Shown: piece after piece, positions 18,610 through 25,895 of the stretch
Position numbering within the stretch: position 1 is the stretch's first letter
Layout: every line of letters begins with the position of its first letter
Assembly (NCBI RefSeq): GCF_003610695.1
Contig: NZ_RAQH01000001.1
Coordinates: 310,001-374,000 of the forward strand
Origin: Epilithonimonas arachidiradicis
GTDB lineage: Bacteria; Bacteroidota; Bacteroidia; Flavobacteriales; Weeksellaceae
Reading direction: 5' to 3'
Length of the DNA stretch: 64,000 nt
Notes under the pieces: generated by a model
Told to the model about the DNA's origin: nothing
Database searches by the model: none
Seen by the model: only the letters and a program-made list of their open reading frames with translations
Program-made: the position numbers and the translations under genes

Positions 18610-18681
18610 TACAATTCAGTCGGTTTTTTCTACAGTTCGGTCAATATTAATTGCTTAACTTCTGATATTGAAATAATTTTG
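18610..18681 (+). promoter_or_regulatory. LytTR-type operator pair and promoter of the sensor kinase operon
   Basis: Two direct repeats, TACAATTCAGTC (18610-18621) and TACAGTTCGGTC (18631-18642), start exactly 21 bases apart. The core ACAGTTCGG of the second matches the LytTR consensus [TA][AC][CA]GTTN[AG][TG] at all nine positions. After a gap of 31 bases comes TAATTTTG (18674-18681), a TAnnTTTG box, 18 bases before the ATG. The same layout, with the same 21 and 31 spacings, precedes the genes ending at 22105 and 22992. Confidence 0.8.
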
Positions 18682-18698
18682 AACCAAGAAATTAAGAA

Positions 18699-20024
18699 AT
18701 GAAAAGAAAAAATATCATATCACTGTTTTGGGTCGGTTTCGGCGTTAATCTTTTTTTCTTCATCGTGGACACTGATGAGAAAACAGTGGAGAACTTTTTC
18801 TATGGACTTTTAGTTTGTCTGATGTACTCATTATTCATCGGAATCAGTAATGGATTGACCAACGAGTTTTTGAACAAAAAATTCCCTTGGGCGGAACAAA
18901 CCAGAACTCGAACCATTTTTGGAATCATTGCTTTGGTTATTGTGAATGTTGTAGTAAGCTATTTATGTGGTTATCTCAATTTTGTAGTGATTCAGAAAAC
19001 GGCGACAACGGAAGCTTTCTTCTCTGGAAAATATAACTTTATCAATTGGTTCACCATTAATATTGCTTTGATGATTTCGGCTTTCCTTCACGCTAAAGGT
19101 TTTATGGAGGAACTGAAAAAGAACACCAAAAAAGAAGTTGTAGAACAGAAACTGATTGCCAAATCTGCCAACGCCCAATTCGAATCGTTAAAGAATCAGT
19201 TGGACCCACATTTTCTTTTTAATTCTTTGAATGTCTTAACGGCTTTGATTGATGAAAACCCGGAACAGGCGCAGAAATTCACGACATCGATGTCAAAGAT
19301 TTATCGTTATGTTCTCGAACAGAAAGACAAAGAAATGGTCAAAGTGGAGGACGAGATAGAATTTGCTAAAATCTATTGCAACCTTTTGAAAACCAGATTT
19401 GAAGACAGCGTGAATTTTACTTTTGACGTCAATAATGATGATTTACAAAAATTTGTAGTTCCACTTTCCTTACAATTATTATTAGAAAACTGCATCAAAC
19501 ATAATTTCGCAACCTCATCAAAATCATTGAATATCAGAATCTTTACAGAAGGAAAGTTCCTCTGCATCGAGAATAATCTCCAAGTGAGAGAGCAACTTAA
19601 AGAAAGCGCAGGAATCGGTTTAGCCAACATCGTTCAGCGTTATGCACTACTTACTAAACAAAATGTATTCATAGAAAAATCAGAACAAACTTTTAAAGTC
19701 AAAATACCAATATTAATCGAAAAAAATTCTCAGACAATGGCAACTTATACTTCAGAAACTACAGAAAATGTCGCTTACGAAAGAGCGGTAAAAAGAGTAA
19801 AAGAACTGAAAGGATTCTACGGAAACTTAATCTCTTATTGCGTCGTGATTCCTTTTTTAGTAATCATCAATCTATTGACTTCGCCTGAACAAATTTGGTT
19901 TTACTGGCCAATGTTAGGCTGGGGAATCGGACTTCTGGCGCACGGAATGACCGTCTTCGCCATCGGTAAAAATTGGGAAGAAAAGAAGATTCGTGAAATA
20001 ATGAATAATCAAAAATCAATTTAA
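18699..20024 (+). CDS. LytS-type sensor histidine kinase with C-terminal 2TM domain
   Basis: A 441-residue membrane histidine kinase of the LytS/YehU type, which phosphorylates LytTR regulators. Four N-terminal membrane helices (about residues 5-22, 33-50, 70-92, 113-130) are followed by the His_kinase block LKNQLDPHFLFNSLNVLTALI (phospho-acceptor His near residue 171) and the ATP-binding part (LLLENCIKHN, GIGLANIVQRY). The last 95 residues form a separate 2TM domain (AYERAVKRVKELKGFYGNLISYCVVIP...WEEKKIREIM) that is repeated as two free-standing proteins by the next two genes. First gene of a five-gene operon ending with a LytTR regulator; preceded by a LytTR-type operator, so likely autoregulated. 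Confidence 0.92.
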   Translation: MKRKNIISLFWVGFGVNLFFFIVDTDEKTVENFFYGLLVCLMYSLFIGISNGLTNEFLNKKFPWAEQTRTRTIFGIIALVIVNVVVSYLCGYLNFVVIQKTATTEAFFSGKYNFINWFTINIALMISAFLHAKGFMEELKKNTKKEVVEQKLIAKSANAQFESLKNQLDPHFLFNSLNVLTALIDENPEQAQKFTTSMSKIYRYVLEQKDKEMVKVEDEIEFAKIYCNLLKTRFEDSVNFTFDVNNDDLQKFVVPLSLQLLLENCIKHNFATSSKSLNIRIFTEGKFLCIENNLQVREQLKESAGIGLANIVQRYALLTKQNVFIEKSEQTFKVKIPILIEKNSQTMATYTSETTENVAYERAVKRVKELKGFYGNLISYCVVIPFLVIINLLTSPEQIWFYWPMLGWGIGLLAHGMTVFAIGKNWEEKKIREIMNNQKSI

Positions 20025-20036
20025 AAATCAATAGCA

Positions 20037-20336
20037 ATGGAACATATTAATAAAGACAATCCACGTTATGCAATGGCTGTGGAAAGAGTACAAAAAATCA
20101 AAAAATTCTATACCGGAATTCTGGTTTTCGCAATCGTATTTATGGTTGTTTACGGCGTCAGATTTTTCAAAAACGGATTTCCGCAGAACCTTGGTGAGAT
20201 GCACTTATCGTGGATTTTTATCATCTGGGGATTGATTCTGGCCATCAAAGGTGCAAAACTGTTTTTGTTCAACTCCGATTGGGAAAATGATATGATTAAC
20301 AAAGAAATCAAAAAACAAAACAATGGAAATTATTAA
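20037..20336 (+). CDS. 2TM domain protein
   Basis: A 99-residue protein consisting of one 2TM domain: a short amphipathic start (YAMAVERVQKIKKFYTGILVF), two membrane helices and a closing acidic/basic motif (FNSDWENDMINKEIKKQ). The pattern AxxRVxxIKxFY...W-E-x-x-I matches the C-terminal domain of the preceding sensor kinase. Function unknown; it probably associates with the kinase through like domains. Its end overlaps the next gene by 14 bases. Confidence 0.85.
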   Translation: MEHINKDNPRYAMAVERVQKIKKFYTGILVFAIVFMVVYGVRFFKNGFPQNLGEMHLSWIFIIWGLILAIKGAKLFLFNSDWENDMINKEIKKQNNGNY

Positions 20337-20625
20337 CGATAAAAACGATATCCAATATCGTGAAGCCGTAAGAAAAGTAAAACGTCTGAAAAGCTTTTAC
20401 ACCCATTTGACAATCTATGTTTTGGTGAATCTATTTCTTATTTTTGCCAACTGGAGCGAAATTCGTGATGAACATAGCATTTGGAGTTGGCAGATTTGGG
20501 CAGTTCCGGTTTTTTGGGGAATCGGATTGATAGCGCAAGCTATAGGAGTTTTCTGTCCGGGTTTCTTCTTCGGAAAAGATTGGGAAGACAAGAAAATCAA
20601 GGAATTGACAGAGAAATATAAATAA
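20323..20625 (+). CDS. 2TM domain protein
   Basis: A 100-residue 2TM domain protein, third copy of the domain in the operon. The sequence YREAVRKVKRLKSFYTHLTIYVLVNLFLIF precedes the second helix WAVPVFWGIGLIAQAIGVF and the tail GKDWEDKKIKELTEKY. It is closer to the kinase-attached copy (GKNWEEKKIREIM) than to the preceding gene. It overlaps its upstream neighbour by 14 bases and ends one base before the methyltransferase-like gene, so all are translated as one unit. Confidence 0.85.
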   Translation: MEIINDKNDIQYREAVRKVKRLKSFYTHLTIYVLVNLFLIFANWSEIRDEHSIWSWQIWAVPVFWGIGLIAQAIGVFCPGFFFGKDWEDKKIKELTEKYK

Positions 20626-20626
20626 A

Positions 20627-21202
20627 ATGATACAGATATTTTTTTATATTCTAATGGGAGCTTGGCTTTTTACCGAGGTCTTTTATAAAAGCCAAATGTC
20701 ATCCAATAATTCTGACCAAAAAGGTAAAGACAAGTCTTCCCTCAGCTTGCTTTGGATTGTTATTATCTCATCCATATCGTTATCAATTTTTGTTTCATAT
20801 ATTCATTTTGAAGATTTTAATTTGATGATGACAACACAAAACTGGATAATCTATCTCGGGTTGGTTGTATTGTTTATCGGGATTTTGACAAGGTTTTTAA
20901 TCATAAAATCTCTTGGCAAATATTTTACTGTGGATGTGACTATCCGTCAAGGCCATAAAATAAAAAAAGACGGGATTTATAGTGTTTTGCGACATCCTTC
21001 TTACGCGGCTTCTCTTCTCACGTTTCTAGGTTTAGGTTTATTTTTAAACAATTGGCTTGCATTATTTATAGCATTTATTCCACCATTTTTAGCATTTTTG
21101 TATAGAATTAAAATTGAAGAAAAAGCCCTTACAGAACAATTTGGACAGGATTATCTCGATTATAAAAAATCAACCAAAAAATTAATTCCCTACATTTATT
21201 AA
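20627..21202 (+). CDS. isoprenylcysteine carboxyl methyltransferase-like membrane protein
   Basis: A 191-residue polytopic membrane protein of the ICMT/PEMT-like methyltransferase family. The conserved C-terminal part is GIYSVLRHPSYAASLLTFLGLGLFLNNWLAL...RIKIEEKALTEQFGQDYLDYKKSTKKLIPYIY, with the RHPxY and EE motifs that bind S-adenosylmethionine in this fold. About five membrane helices. The methyl acceptor is unknown; bacteria lack farnesylated proteins, so lipids or other small isoprenoids are possible. It is inserted between the 2TM genes and the LytTR regulator gene, five bases from the latter. Confidence 0.85.
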   Translation: MIQIFFYILMGAWLFTEVFYKSQMSSNNSDQKGKDKSSLSLLWIVIISSISLSIFVSYIHFEDFNLMMTTQNWIIYLGLVVLFIGILTRFLIIKSLGKYFTVDVTIRQGHKIKKDGIYSVLRHPSYAASLLTFLGLGLFLNNWLALFIAFIPPFLAFLYRIKIEEKALTEQFGQDYLDYKKSTKKLIPYIY

Positions 21203-21208
21203 GAAACT

Positions 21209-21958
21209 ATGAAAATTAGAACGATAATCATTGAAGACGAAAAACCAGCGGTCAGAAGGCTGGAAAAATTATTAAGCCTATTTCCTGATTTAGAATTAGT
21301 TGCGAGCCTCAATTCTGTGGAAGAAGCAGTTGATTGGTTTCAGGAAAATGAACATCCACAGCTGATTTTTTCAGACATCGTTTTAGGCGACGGATTATCG
21401 TTTGATATTTTTGATAAAGTTTCAACCAAAGCTTTCATCATTTACACAACCGCTTTTGACCAGTACACCTTAAAGGCTTTCAAACTGAACAGCATCGATT
21501 ATCTCCTGAAACCGATTGAAGAAGAAGACTTGGCTAAAGCCATTGAGAAATTCAAATCATTTTTGCCGGAAGAAGGTTTGGTTAATTCTCAGGAAATCAG
21601 ACAGATTGTTCGAAAAGAAAAATCAACGCTTTCCAGAATTTTGGTCAAAATCGGTTACAATCTGAAAGTGGTTTCCATCAACGAAGTCAGTTGTTTCTAC
21701 AGCGAAAATAAAATTGTTTACTTGCAAACTAAAGAACGGAATTTCCCAACAGATTTCACTTTGGACGAATTGGAAAATGTCTTGGACAACACTAAATTTT
21801 TCCGCGTCAACAGACAATTTATCATCAGTTCAGATTACATCAAAAACATCCACACTTCTCCGAATTATAAGGTTGATCTAGACTTCCAACCGAATGAAGA
21901 GATTACGGTGAGCAGAGAACGTGTGAAGGATTTCAAGGATTGGCTGGCAGGGAATTAG
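21209..21958 (+). CDS. LytTR-family response regulator
   Basis: A 249-residue regulator with an N-terminal receiver domain (residues 1-120; IIEDE at the start, phospho-acceptor Asp in LIFSDIVLGDG near residue 56, TTAFDQYTLKAF, and the Lys in IDYLLKPIEEED) and a C-terminal LytTR DNA-binding domain (about residues 145-245; ILVKIGYNLKVVSINEVSCFYSENKIVYLQT...FFRVNRQFIIS). It is the partner of the LytS-type kinase four genes upstream. LytTR domains bind paired direct repeats; three such pairs in this window are listed as regulatory sites and are its probable targets. Confidence 0.93.
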   Translation: MKIRTIIIEDEKPAVRRLEKLLSLFPDLELVASLNSVEEAVDWFQENEHPQLIFSDIVLGDGLSFDIFDKVSTKAFIIYTTAFDQYTLKAFKLNSIDYLLKPIEEEDLAKAIEKFKSFLPEEGLVNSQEIRQIVRKEKSTLSRILVKIGYNLKVVSINEVSCFYSENKIVYLQTKERNFPTDFTLDELENVLDNTKFFRVNRQFIISSDYIKNIHTSPNYKVDLDFQPNEEITVSRERVKDFKDWLAGN

Positions 21959-22056
21959 AAAAATCACTTGATTTTATAAAGCCTTACATCTTGCATTGAT
22001 AACATCTTTTACCCAACTTCCTCCAGGCTAGAACTAATTGCTGTGTATTAAAACTA

Positions 22057-22085
22057 AAATTCCCTCGTAAAAACGAAGGAATTTT
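22057..22085. terminator. terminator between the LytTR gene and the helical-repeat gene
   Basis: AAAATTCCCTCG and CGAAGGAATTTT form a stem with one mismatch around a small A-rich loop. T and A runs on either side allow use in both directions; the two genes converge here. Confidence 0.7.
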
Positions 22086-22104
22086 GTGAAGATGAAAGTC
22101 TTTT

Positions 22105-22746
22105 TTATTTCTGACTCAGGAAATATTCTGCTTCAGCTTTTCCCCATTTTGGGTCGAGAAACGTTTTTGATTTGTAAGCATTGAACTGCTCAATGGCTTT
22201 TTTGAATAATTCAATTCCCTTTTCTTTGCTGCCACCGAACTGTTCTGGTGTGAAGTAAGCATCTTCTGCCTGTAAAACTGTGATTCTAGGATTATTAGGA
22301 TCTAGTTCTTGAGCTTTTGCCAAAGCTTGTTGAGCAATTGGCGCTTCACTCATATATCTGGACATCGGGTCTGCCATCATTCTGAGCCCGCTTGTCATTT
22401 TTTTCAGGATGAAGAGTTCCGCATTATTCGGACTGAGCGCTTCTGCTTTTGCGATATATTTGTCTGCTTCATCTGCAGCCGTATCTAAGCCGGATTTATC
22501 CCCGCTACGCATCAGGATTCTCCCTTTTTGGATGGTTGCAAAGGCAGCATAATAATACGGAAGCCAATTGTTTGCCTCTTTCGTTCCGATTCTGTCAAAA
22601 TCGTTGGCTAAAGCTGTGAATTCGTCTGGTGTTTTGTGGTCTTCTACTTTAGCGATTTTCTCTGTCATTGCTTTTTCAAAAGCTGTTTGTGCAAATGTGA
22701 TTGTACTTACAAAAAGTAATGCTGCTGTTAAGATTAGATTTTTCAT
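22105..22746 (-). CDS. secreted TPR-like helical-repeat protein
   Basis: A 213-residue protein with a clear signal peptide (MKNLILTAALLFVSTITFAQ). The mature part is helical with TPR-like spacing: YYAAFATIQKGRILMRSGDKSGLDTAADEADKYIAKAEALSPNNAELFILKK and QQALAKAQELDPNNPRITVLQAEDAYFTPEQFGGSKEKGIELFKKAIEQF. The A-L-x-P-N-N and ELDPNNPR turns are typical of TPR. No enzyme motifs. It is expected in the periplasm or on the outer membrane. Its promoter carries the same operator pair as the LytS/LytTR operon and the TonB receptor gene just upstream, so the three are probably co-regulated. Confidence 0.82.
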   Translation of the reverse strand: MKNLILTAALLFVSTITFAQTAFEKAMTEKIAKVEDHKTPDEFTALANDFDRIGTKEANNWLPYYYAAFATIQKGRILMRSGDKSGLDTAADEADKYIAKAEALSPNNAELFILKKMTSGLRMMADPMSRYMSEAPIAQQALAKAQELDPNNPRITVLQAEDAYFTPEQFGGSKEKGIELFKKAIEQFNAYKSKTFLDPKWGKAEAEYFLSQK

Positions 22747-22784
22747 TTGGATATTTTTTAATTGTTTATTTTAAATTTCTGATT

Positions 22785-22856
22785 CAAAGATAGAATGAGT
22801 TTTTGTTCATTTAAATTTTATTCTACCGAGTTGTTGTTTTTAATGACTGAATTGTA
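22785..22856 (-). promoter_or_regulatory. LytTR-type operator pair and promoter of the helical-repeat gene
   Basis: On the minus strand the distal repeat is TACAATTCAGTC (22856-22845), identical to the distal copy before the kinase operon. The weaker proximal repeat AACAACTCGGTA (22835-22824) starts 21 bases later. After 31 bases comes TATCTTTG (22792-22785), a TAnnTTTG box. The spacings equal those of the other two sites exactly. Confidence 0.72.
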
Positions 22857-22873
22857 ACTTTAATTAAGTTTTC

Positions 22874-22984
22874 AACCACAAAAGTCACAAAGATTAATAT
22901 TGATTTGATTACTCTATGTTGAATTTTTAAAGTTCAAATAAGTTGACTGATTTAAAATCAAACTTTTGTGCCTTTTGTGGTTTT
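22874..22984. repeat. intergenic element with 20-bp terminal inverted repeats (family B, copy 4)
   Basis: AACCACAAAAGTCACAAAG (22874-22892) and the inverted CTTTTGTGCCTTTTGTGGTT (22963-22982) flank about 70 AT-rich bases. The layout resembles the other family-B elements, with CACAAA words in place of CGCAAA. It sits between the TonB receptor stop and the helical-repeat gene's operator and may limit read-through. Confidence 0.6.
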
Positions 22985-22991
22985 AAATCAT

Positions 22992-25229
22992 TTACAAATT
23001 ATTATTAATCGCATCATTCGTTTTATCAACCCCGAAACTTACAAATACGCCTACAAAAGCAAACGTATTAACCGGAGGTCTAACGGCTGTTCTACTGTTT
23101 CCGTCTGCAGAATAATTATAGCCGTAAATATTTTTATTTCCAAGAATATTATTAATACTCAAGACAAATACAGTGAATGACTTTGAATCTTTCTTCCCAA
23201 CACTTGGAACATAATTGATACTGAAATTCAGCCCGCTGTAATCCTTCAGCTTTCCTTGGTGACGAACGATATTCTCTCCGTTTTTTGAAACCAAATCATA
23301 ATAAGGACGCCCTTTGGAATAAGTATATGACAAATTAAATCCTGTTTTCCAGTCCATCACAAATTTCTTAGCAACGGCATTGAATGTATGTTTTGAAGCA
23401 AAATTCGGTGCTAAACTAAAAGGATAGTTTAAGAAATCTCTTTTAGAATCCAGGTAGGAATAGGTCAGCCAATAATCGATGTCTTTGAAGGTTTTTTTAT
23501 CTCGCCAGAATAACTCGATTCCTTTTGCAAAGCCTTTACCATTATTGATATTGGCAATTTGATAATATTGATTTTGATTACTGGTCATTAAGCTATCTGA
23601 GATATAAGATTTTGTTTTAATAAGACTTTTATAATTTTTATAAAACGCTTCGAATCTTAGACTTCTTCCATCAGAATTTTTCTGAACCTGAAAAATATAA
23701 TGGTCGGCCCTCTGGAAATCAAAATTCTTGCTGTAAAGATATTTGCTTTCGGGATTCTGATAGAAGATCCCGTAAGCGAAAGATGTTGTCCAGTCTTTGG
23801 AAATCCTATAAGCTAAAGCTGCTCTCGGAGAGAAATTCCATTTATCCAGATAAGAAGAATGTTCTGTTCTTGCTCCAATTTTTGCAGTTAAATTATTAGT
23901 AAAAATCAAATCGGTTTCCGCAAAAGCAGACGAAATCAAATCTTTATAATCTCTTTCAAAAGTTCCATATTTCATTGTTTCATCAGCATTATTTAATTCA
24001 AAACCTCCTCTCACAATGCTTGCTCTGTTGATTTTTCTTTCGATAACAGCCTTTGCATTGATATAATTGGATTGGTTGTTAATTGGTGTATTAGATTGCT
24101 CAACATTATCTTTAAAAGTTGCAAAATTCAAATCGTTAGAATTGTAAGTATAAGATGTTCCGATATTCAAAAGATACTTTCCGAATTTCTCTTTGTAAGA
24201 CAAATTGTGATACATATTCTGGCCTTTCAGACTGACCATATTTTTGTCAGAATCTTCTTCCAAACTTTCGGAACCGACTGCCATTTTATTCTCATCCACA
24301 CTTCCGTAATATTTGATGAAACCGCCTTTTTTAGTTTTAATTCTGAAGTTTCCATCGAATCCATAACCCTGAGGATATTTGTCAAAATCTGTATTGAAAT
24401 TGAATAGTTTTCCCATCAATCCAAGATTAGAATAACCACCCGCAACACCCCAGGAAGCTGTTTTCTTCTGATTTAGTTTCTGATAATTCGCACTTAGAAA
24501 AATCGGGGAAACACTGAAATCAAACGACGTTGTATCCGGCAAATCCACACTTTCCAAAATCAGAACAGAAGACAACGCCTGTCCATAAACTGCTGAATAG
24601 CCACCGCTTGAAAACACATTACCTTTAAATAACGATGTATTGAAACGGTCTCTACCAGCAATTCCCGGAACCGAATTGGTAAAATAATTATTGACCAGAT
24701 TGCCGTCCATAAAGATTTTAGTTTCCGCTCCGGTTCCACCTCGTACAAATAAACCTTCACTCTCTCCTACTTTCTGAACACCCGGCAAATAGCCTAAAGC
24801 TGAGGAAATCTGTCCATTAGCGCCGGCTGTTGTATAAACATCCAAAGGTGTCAGTAATGCTGTCGCACGTTTTTTATCGCTGGCTTCTATGCTTCCTGCA
24901 GTAATCACGACTGCATTGATTTCGCTGATTTGCTCCTTTAGATTAGCATTCATTGCAATATCTTTTCCCTCGATTTTCACAGGTAGTTCAACCTCATCAT
25001 AATCTTTTCCGTAAAATACCAAAGTCTTATCTCCTGTTTCTGTGGTTGTGAAAGAATAGTTTCCATTAGCATCAGTAGTTGCACCGTCATACGTATCTTT
25101 AAGCGTAACGCTGATGTCTTTCAATGCTTTGTTCTTATAAGTGACTTTTCCAGAAATGGTAATCTGTGACCAGATGCTAATACCAACCAAAAGAAAAAAA
25201 AGTGTGAAAATTCTGCTTTGAGTTTTCAT
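22992..25229 (-). CDS. TonB-dependent outer-membrane receptor
   Basis: A 745-residue outer-membrane active transporter. The signal peptide is MKTQSRIFTLFFLLVGISIWSQ. Residues 23-105 form a carboxypeptidase-regulatory-like domain (TISGKVTYKNKALKDISVTLKDTYDGATTDANGNYSF), usual in Bacteroidota receptors. A plug domain follows (AVVITAGSIEASDKKRATALLTPLDVYTTAGANGQISSALGYLPGVQ, then FVRGGTGAETKIFMDGNLV), and then a 22-strand-type barrel ending in an aromatic-rich strand (VNTFAFVGVFVSFGV). There is no SusD partner, and the size is closer to metal-chelate receptors than SusC. The substrate is unknown. Its promoter has the LytTR-type operator pair. Confidence 0.93.
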   Translation of the reverse strand: MKTQSRIFTLFFLLVGISIWSQITISGKVTYKNKALKDISVTLKDTYDGATTDANGNYSFTTTETGDKTLVFYGKDYDEVELPVKIEGKDIAMNANLKEQISEINAVVITAGSIEASDKKRATALLTPLDVYTTAGANGQISSALGYLPGVQKVGESEGLFVRGGTGAETKIFMDGNLVNNYFTNSVPGIAGRDRFNTSLFKGNVFSSGGYSAVYGQALSSVLILESVDLPDTTSFDFSVSPIFLSANYQKLNQKKTASWGVAGGYSNLGLMGKLFNFNTDFDKYPQGYGFDGNFRIKTKKGGFIKYYGSVDENKMAVGSESLEEDSDKNMVSLKGQNMYHNLSYKEKFGKYLLNIGTSYTYNSNDLNFATFKDNVEQSNTPINNQSNYINAKAVIERKINRASIVRGGFELNNADETMKYGTFERDYKDLISSAFAETDLIFTNNLTAKIGARTEHSSYLDKWNFSPRAALAYRISKDWTTSFAYGIFYQNPESKYLYSKNFDFQRADHYIFQVQKNSDGRSLRFEAFYKNYKSLIKTKSYISDSLMTSNQNQYYQIANINNGKGFAKGIELFWRDKKTFKDIDYWLTYSYLDSKRDFLNYPFSLAPNFASKHTFNAVAKKFVMDWKTGFNLSYTYSKGRPYYDLVSKNGENIVRHQGKLKDYSGLNFSINYVPSVGKKDSKSFTVFVLSINNILGNKNIYGYNYSADGNSRTAVRPPVNTFAFVGVFVSFGVDKTNDAINNNL

Positions 25230-25245
25230 AATGTTAATTTTGATT

Positions 25246-25317
25246 CAAAGATATTTTAGCCGAGGATAATAGTAAATTAATTATGACCGAACCGTAGATA
25301 TTGCTAACCGAATCGTA
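25246..25317 (-). promoter_or_regulatory. LytTR-type operator pair and promoter of the TonB receptor gene
   Basis: On the minus strand: TACGATTCGGTT (25317-25306), then TACGGTTCGGTC (25296-25285) starting 21 bases later, then 31 bases to TATCTTTG (25253-25246). The receptor ATG lies 17 bases further on. The proximal core ACGGTTCGG matches the LytTR consensus in eight of nine positions. Confidence 0.78.
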
Positions 25318-25394: not shown

Positions 25395-25895
25395 ATGAAA
25401 AACTTATTACTAATTGGAATCGCCGGCTTAATGCTGGCTTCCTGCAAAACAGTTTCTAAACAATACACCGTTCGTCCAAAATCTCATACCGAGACTCAGG
25501 GAACTGCAACATTTACTCAAAAAAAAGGAGAAGTTACGATGGATCTGAGCGTATTCAAACTCAAACCGGGAATGCACGCTGTTCATATCCACGAGTTTGG
25601 AAACTGCAGTGCAACAGACGCTTCATCTGCTGGCGGACATTGGAATCCTTCCAAAGACGACCACGGCAAATGGGAATCTGACCATTTCCATATGGGCGAT
25701 ATCGGCAATCTTGATGCGGATAAAAACGGACAGGCACAACTAATTTTCACTACTGATAAATGGTGTCTTGGATGTGATGACCCGATGAAAAATATTATTG
25801 GAAAATCGGTCGTTATCCACGCCGGAGTAGATGATTTTCATACGCAACCTACTGGAAATGCGGGCGGAAGAGTCGGATGTGTTGAGATAAAATAA
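25395..25895 (+). CDS. sodC: Cu/Zn superoxide dismutase, lipoprotein
   Basis: A 166-residue Cu/Zn-type superoxide dismutase that removes superoxide outside the cytoplasm. The lipoprotein signal is MKNLLLIGIAGLMLASC with Cys17. Metal ligands are visible as HAVHIHEFGNC (two Cu His), GGHWNPSKDDHGKWESDHFHMGDIGNL (bridging His, Zn His and Asp) and SVVIHAGVDDF (last Cu His). The disulfide pair is probably the Cys in EFGNC and the one in GGRVGC. The CLGCDD insertion adds a second Cys pair (WCLGCDD), which is less usual. It is divergent from the TonB receptor gene. Confidence 0.94.
   Translation: MKNLLLIGIAGLMLASCKTVSKQYTVRPKSHTETQGTATFTQKKGEVTMDLSVFKLKPGMHAVHIHEFGNCSATDASSAGGHWNPSKDDHGKWESDHFHMGDIGNLDADKNGQAQLIFTTDKWCLGCDDPMKNIIGKSVVIHAGVDDFHTQPTGNAGGRVGCVEIK

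Follow-up and report, generated by a model that had tools for sequence, protein, structure and literature searches.

A conserved tandem promoter element and a very probable LytTR regulon around a Hus-type uptake pair in Epilithonimonas arachidiradicis

Which genes answer to the LytS/LytTR system encoded in a 64,000-nucleotide stretch of Epilithonimonas arachidiradicis (contig NZ_RAQH01000001.1, positions 310,001 to 374,000; the window, in which coordinates are counted unless a contig is named), and what do these genes do? A tandem element recurs there before the LytS/LytTR operon, before the gene of a secreted helical-repeat protein and before a TonB receptor gene, and a sequence-only reading had taken the three promoters for a local LytTR regulon. 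The comparison of genomes described below indicates that this is very probably a real and conserved LytTR regulon, with four promoters, around an uptake pair of the Hus type (HusA-like helical-repeat protein and HusB-like TonB receptor). Both the architecture of the DNA and the family of the uptake pair have been described before, but their connection, judged by the open literature, appears to be new.

Direct reading of the sequence confirms the positions 18610 (+), 22856 (-) and 25317 (-) for the tandem sites, each of which has copy starts 21 nt apart. The distance to TAnnTTTG, previously given as exactly 31 nt, holds when a motif of 12 nt is counted and equals 32 nt (N32) when counted from the 11-mer; equally, the distal 12-mer TACAATTCAGTC is indeed common to the 18610 and 22856 sites. 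The copies read TACAATTCAGT/TACAGTTCGGT at 18610 and TACGATTCGGT/TACGGTTCGGT at 25317, both without mismatch, and TACAATTCAGT/AACAACTCGGT at 22856, where two mismatches both fall into the second copy. The predicted control elements are as follows.

18610..18641, + strand: predicted operator O1 of the LytS/LytTR operon (copies 18610-18620 and 18631-18641; 0 mismatches; before LytS in 24/24 genus genomes)
18651..18681, + strand: predicted promoter P1 (-33 TTG at 18651-18653, -7 TAATTTTG at 18674-18681; position-specific matrix)
22825..22856, - strand: predicted operator O2 of the HusA-like gene (kept in 22/22 intact orthologues)
22785..22792, - strand: -7 box TATCTTTG of the HusA-like gene (N32 from the second copy)
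25286..25317, - strand: predicted operator O3 of the HusB-like TonB receptor gene (0 mismatches; kept in 22/22 intact orthologues)
25246..25253, - strand: -7 box TATCTTTG of the TonB receptor gene (N32 from the second copy)

The whole 3.65-Mb genome was searched with a pattern combining tandem motif and -7 box (motif-N-motif-N33-TAnnTTTG, <=3 mismatches), with the reversed pattern as control. While the tandem 11-mer alone gave 5 matches and no control match at this threshold, addition of the -7 box left exactly 4 matches, the four promoter sites, again with 0 matches of the reversed control. The fourth site, G000:C1:466741 (-), lies 131 kb from the window sites, shows the same N32 followed by TATTTTTG, and precedes the gene of a secreted alpha/beta hydrolase. 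The three window promoters thus stand as members of the proposed regulon, which was, however, incomplete, as this hydrolase promoter, found in 21/24 genus genomes, had been missed. A fifth site with 3 mismatches (G000:C1:606740), within a gene of a Mu-like prophage and without a -7 box, was discarded as chance; the prophage itself (G000:C1:604500-612000) carries portal, terminase and protease-type genes.

Is the element conserved? In an unbiased pattern search of 99 relatives, 26 gave matches, nearly all of them before orthologues of the LytS, TonB receptor, HusA-like or hydrolase genes. Within the 24 genomes of the genus, the pattern with -7 box (<=3 mismatches) matched 99 times, 92 times before orthologues of the four genes; the remaining seven matches all have 3 mismatches and equal in number the 7 matches of the reversed control. 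The element is kept before LytS in 24/24 cases, before the intact TonB receptor and HusA orthologues in 22/22 cases each and before the hydrolase gene in 21/21, the three other genomes possessing neither this gene nor its site. Outside the element the four promoters are dissimilar, yet the copy distance of 21 and N32 never vary at any intact orthologue in the genus. The search of genome and relatives that the sequence-only reading had proposed as a check therefore places the matches before orthologues with the spacing kept, and non-conservation is refuted.

In two members of the genus (G005, locus L149, and G012, locus L150), both the TonB receptor gene and the HusA gene have jointly broken down into fragments, with operators that can still be recognised, while LytS/LytTR and hydrolase persist. 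Other genera of the family carry a contiguous cluster of TonB, HusA, often 2TM, LytS, 2TM and LytTR genes, and most of these clusters possess the element, with N32 or N33, before TonB, HusA, LytS or 2TM genes. It is also present in four named Chryseobacterium, C. antibioticum and C. paridis among them, and a second family has it in front of the TonB gene and a DUF2141 gene. Across loci L135, L139, L136, L137 and L060, the DUF2141 gene is located between TonB and HusA in Flavobacterium-like genomes and immediately precedes LytS/LytTR in two other families; the tandem element, intact or degenerate, stands upstream of it, and the gene is probably an older member of the regulon.

The architecture of the element points to the class of its regulator. 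A position-specific matrix of 61 sites consists of a half-site ACNRTTCRG, a spacer of 12 bp and a second half-site, with an invariant TT (-33) 10 bp after the second 9-mer and TAnnTTTG (-7) about 20 nt further on; two 9-bp direct repeats 11-13 bp apart just upstream of the promoter, the mark of LytTR regulons, are thus present. Published LytTR operators are arranged as ACCxCTTAx-12 bp-ACCxCTTAx, mostly 10 bp before the -35 box, and mediate positive autoregulation (PMC6193735). Since the spacing agrees exactly with this layout (9 bp, 12 bp, 9 bp, 10 bp, promoter), a LytTR activator with positive autoregulation is a well supported prediction. For the LytS/2TM/LytTR operon, the TonB receptor and the helical-repeat gene, the proposed regulon is supported by the conserved element together with the published layout, from which we infer binding and activation.

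What is regulated can be named more precisely than before. The two envelope genes are:

22105..22746, - strand: HusA-like secreted protein of the haemophore family (213 aa, signal peptide predicted; phmmer versus PDB 6bqs, E 1e-28)
22992..25229, - strand: HusB-like TonB-dependent receptor, CarboxypepD_reg and barrel, 745 aa (Pfam; BLASTP versus P. gulae HusB, E 7e-32)

The helical-repeat protein shares 33% identity with HusA of Porphyromonas gingivalis, and Foldseek with its AlphaFold model (pLDDT 90) returned 6bqs as the only PDB match below E 0.001 (E 1.4e-10; TM 0.78/0.82). A homologue of the window receptor is encoded immediately upstream of HusA at each of the 80 named loci retrieved from Bacteroidota, among them the husB-husA pair of P. 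gulae; a PDB search with the receptor sequence gave no sequence match, and NCBIfam holds no family for the kinase, the TonB receptor or the HusA-like protein. That the window pair belongs to the Hus family is well supported; the same does not hold for porphyrin binding. The pair had been regarded as part of a candidate undescribed uptake-and-sensing module with a periplasmic partner; it is instead homologous to HusA/HusB of Porphyromonas, a known family, and a haemophore-like protein of the HusA type, secreted or at the surface, describes the partner better. The part that appears undescribed is the control of a Hus-type pair by LytS/LytTR: nothing in the open literature searched describes a link between HusA and LytTR, 2TM and LytTR, or HusA and Flavobacteria. 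Divergent from the TonB receptor gene in many genera is a gene for a Cu/Zn superoxide dismutase lipoprotein (window 25395-25895, +), which has no operator of its own.

The operon of the putative regulator comprises five genes:

18699..20024, + strand: LytS-type sensor kinase, His_kinase PF06580 and C-terminal 2TM PF13239 (Pfam; H-box PHFLFNSLN, G-box GIGLANI)
20037..20336, + strand: stand-alone 2TM protein 1 (Pfam 2TM, E 1.3e-12)
20323..20625, + strand: stand-alone 2TM protein 2 (Pfam 2TM, E 6e-24)
20627..21202, + strand: membrane methyltransferase-like protein, PEMT/ICMT (Pfam; only in some orthologous operons)
21209..21958, + strand: LytTR response regulator, receiver and LytTR DNA-binding domain (Pfam; 91-97% identity in 24/24 genus genomes)

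The LytTR regulator is encoded where it had been placed (PF04397, E 2.2e-22; receiver PF00072), its best NCBIfam match being BtsR, below cut-off. The phospho-acceptor histidine of the kinase (H-box PHFLFN) and the receiver aspartate (FSDIVLGDG) are both present, as in a two-component system, and the only three 2TM domains of the genome are all encoded in this operon. Intramembrane histidines of the 2TM domain were considered as haem ligands and rejected as too variable: of the domains, 72% have His in the second helix and 46% in the first. No connection with the window system could be established for a study of F. johnsoniae that includes mutations of LytTR and of a kinase (PMC10197871).

Taken together, we hold it to be highly probable that LytS/LytTR activates four promoters and thereby raises Hus-type uptake. 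Operator architecture, target set, conservation and Hus homology are, as far as sequence comparison reaches, established, and the remaining steps would be the following. The membrane kinase with its C-terminal 2TM domain would receive a signal and phosphorylate the LytTR regulator (21209-21958), which would bind the two direct copies of ACNRTTCRG, 12 bp apart and 10 bp upstream of the -33 box, and activate its own operon (positive autoregulation), the HusA-like gene, the HusB-like TonB receptor gene and the secreted alpha/beta hydrolase gene. The result would be more Hus-type uptake of a hydrophobic ligand, most likely porphyrin or haem.

The points that weigh against this explanation concern the ligand and the regulator. 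With regulon and regulator left as they are, the Hus pair of free-living Flavobacteriales might capture another hydrophobic nutrient or signal, porphyrin binding having arisen later in Porphyromonas, a reading to which we give somewhat less than an even chance. Such a co-option in Porphyromonas has been suggested by the HusA authors (PMC6173696), and the aromatic groove residues W130/Y164 are lost to G/A in Flavobacteriaceae homologues. The involvement of HusA in haem supply 'requires further clarification' (PMC10100897), and in one study husA was not haem-responsive, iron/haem starvation failing to induce it (PMC10913741). Furthermore, the genome encodes a ferrochelatase, so that the host is unlikely to be a haem auxotroph. 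On the other hand, the Weeksellaceae keep the four HusA groove positions L123, V124, W130 and Y164 (PMC6173696) hydrophobic or aromatic: position 123 is mostly M, 124 mostly V/A, 130 Y/F/W and 164 F/Y, and the window protein, with M, A, Y and F, is conservative, not identical. In HusA itself, Y164F still shows the haemin spectrum (PMC6173696). A second, diverged HusA paralogue is present in most members of one related genus (G042, G100, G101, G107, G122, G152, G165, G179 and G187).

As to the regulator, the genome contains 13 response-regulator-like matches to the window LytTR (E up to 1e-3) and several LytTR-like paralogues, one of which might bind the operators with the adjacent LytS/LytTR merely a target. 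For this reason the adjacent LytTR is assigned as probable binder by linkage, the geometry of autoregulation and co-occurrence. All 24 genus genomes possess it, and in many other genomes it lies in a cluster with husAB, whereas its nearest paralogues reach no more than about 40% identity and are patchily distributed; LytTR regulators, besides, usually control their own operons. Of 148 genomes of the order, 41 bear HusA, and 40 of these also encode the window LytTR type, a figure inflated by the shared ancestry of the genomes, and in 31 of those 40 it lies within about 5 kb of HusA. Binding by another paralogue is consequently judged improbable. Repression instead of activation by the tandem sites is given a similarly small likelihood; the direction of regulation cannot be read from sequence, but the sites are located wholly upstream of the -33 box, at the position of characterised LytTR activators and without promoter overlap. 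An origin of the repeats by chance, or as a promoter feature general in the lineage, is already refuted and has next to no probability, as, although the genome is AT-rich and the -7 box common, reversed controls gave no match in the own genome and 7 in 24 genomes, and only four gene families are hit genus-wide.

Activation by the adjacent LytS/LytTR being preferred, how are Hus loci regulated elsewhere? Of 98 rows of the HusA family, 70 show a winged-helix gene of the HTH_34 kind in the neighbourhood and 22 are of the LytTR type; 6 have neither and none both. The LytS/LytTR loci belong to Flavobacteriales and one Cytophagaceae, the HTH_34 loci to Porphyromonas and Chitinophagaceae; in the latter type of locus no tandem element was found, the best matches being no better than reversed controls. 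In the HusA tree, which has long branches, the LytTR label requires 3 changes, and a single swap of the regulator is possible. Just upstream of husB, Porphyromonas has the HTH_34 gene together with that of a membrane protein, as in P. gulae (L155, 4744-5629), where the two genes encode a 198-aa membrane protein and the winged-helix regulator; their relatives adjoin most Hus loci outside the Flavobacteriales. The mutual exclusion of the two regulators suggests that husC and husD may be this regulator and its membrane partner. As a 2TM protein also accompanies 24/70 HTH_34-type loci and is encoded only in the LytS operon here, the 2TM domain may be a Hus-linked component and a candidate part of the sensor. 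Tentatively, and with considerable doubt, a phylum-wide Hus uptake system may be imagined whose regulator was exchanged between lineages (HTH_34 and membrane protein versus LytS/2TM/LytTR), with dedicated 2TM domains of Flavobacteriales sensing the ligand or loading state of the outer-membrane pair in a self-amplifying uptake-and-sensing circuit.

Work on HusA/HusB has been confined almost entirely to Porphyromonas; there, its contribution to haem supply is disputed, and husC/husD are reported without an assigned function. The Hus system now gains a predicted regulator, an exact operator, a target set of four promoters and a conserved, co-regulated hydrolase in Flavobacteriales hosts that are tractable and non-auxotrophic. 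A simple promoter reporter would allow a screen for the inducing signal and, through it, for the true ligand. Compared with known systems, the window shares with the hus operon of Porphyromonas gingivalis (PG2227 = HusA, PDB 6BQS/6CRL) the homologous secreted TPR-like protein and TonB receptor, side by side. Porphyromonas and Chitinophagaceae, however, have an HTH_34 winged-helix regulator, usually with a membrane protein, and no LytS/LytTR, while in the window each gene has its own LytTR-type promoter and the hydrolase is added. BtsS/BtsR and YpdA/YpdB of gamma-proteobacteria equally combine a LytS-type kinase with a LytTR regulator that activates a transporter gene; their target is inner-membrane pyruvate transport, whereas the window system, with a C-terminal 2TM on its kinase, stand-alone 2TM proteins and predicted autoregulation, would target outer-membrane Hus uptake. 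The LytTR Regulatory Systems HdrRM and BrsRM (PMC6193735), finally, likewise have 9-bp direct repeats separated by 12 bp, a promoter 10 bp further on and an autoregulated operon, but consist of a regulator and a membrane inhibitor, whereas the window encodes a true two-component system (kinase and receiver domain) with a Bacteroidota -33/-7 promoter.

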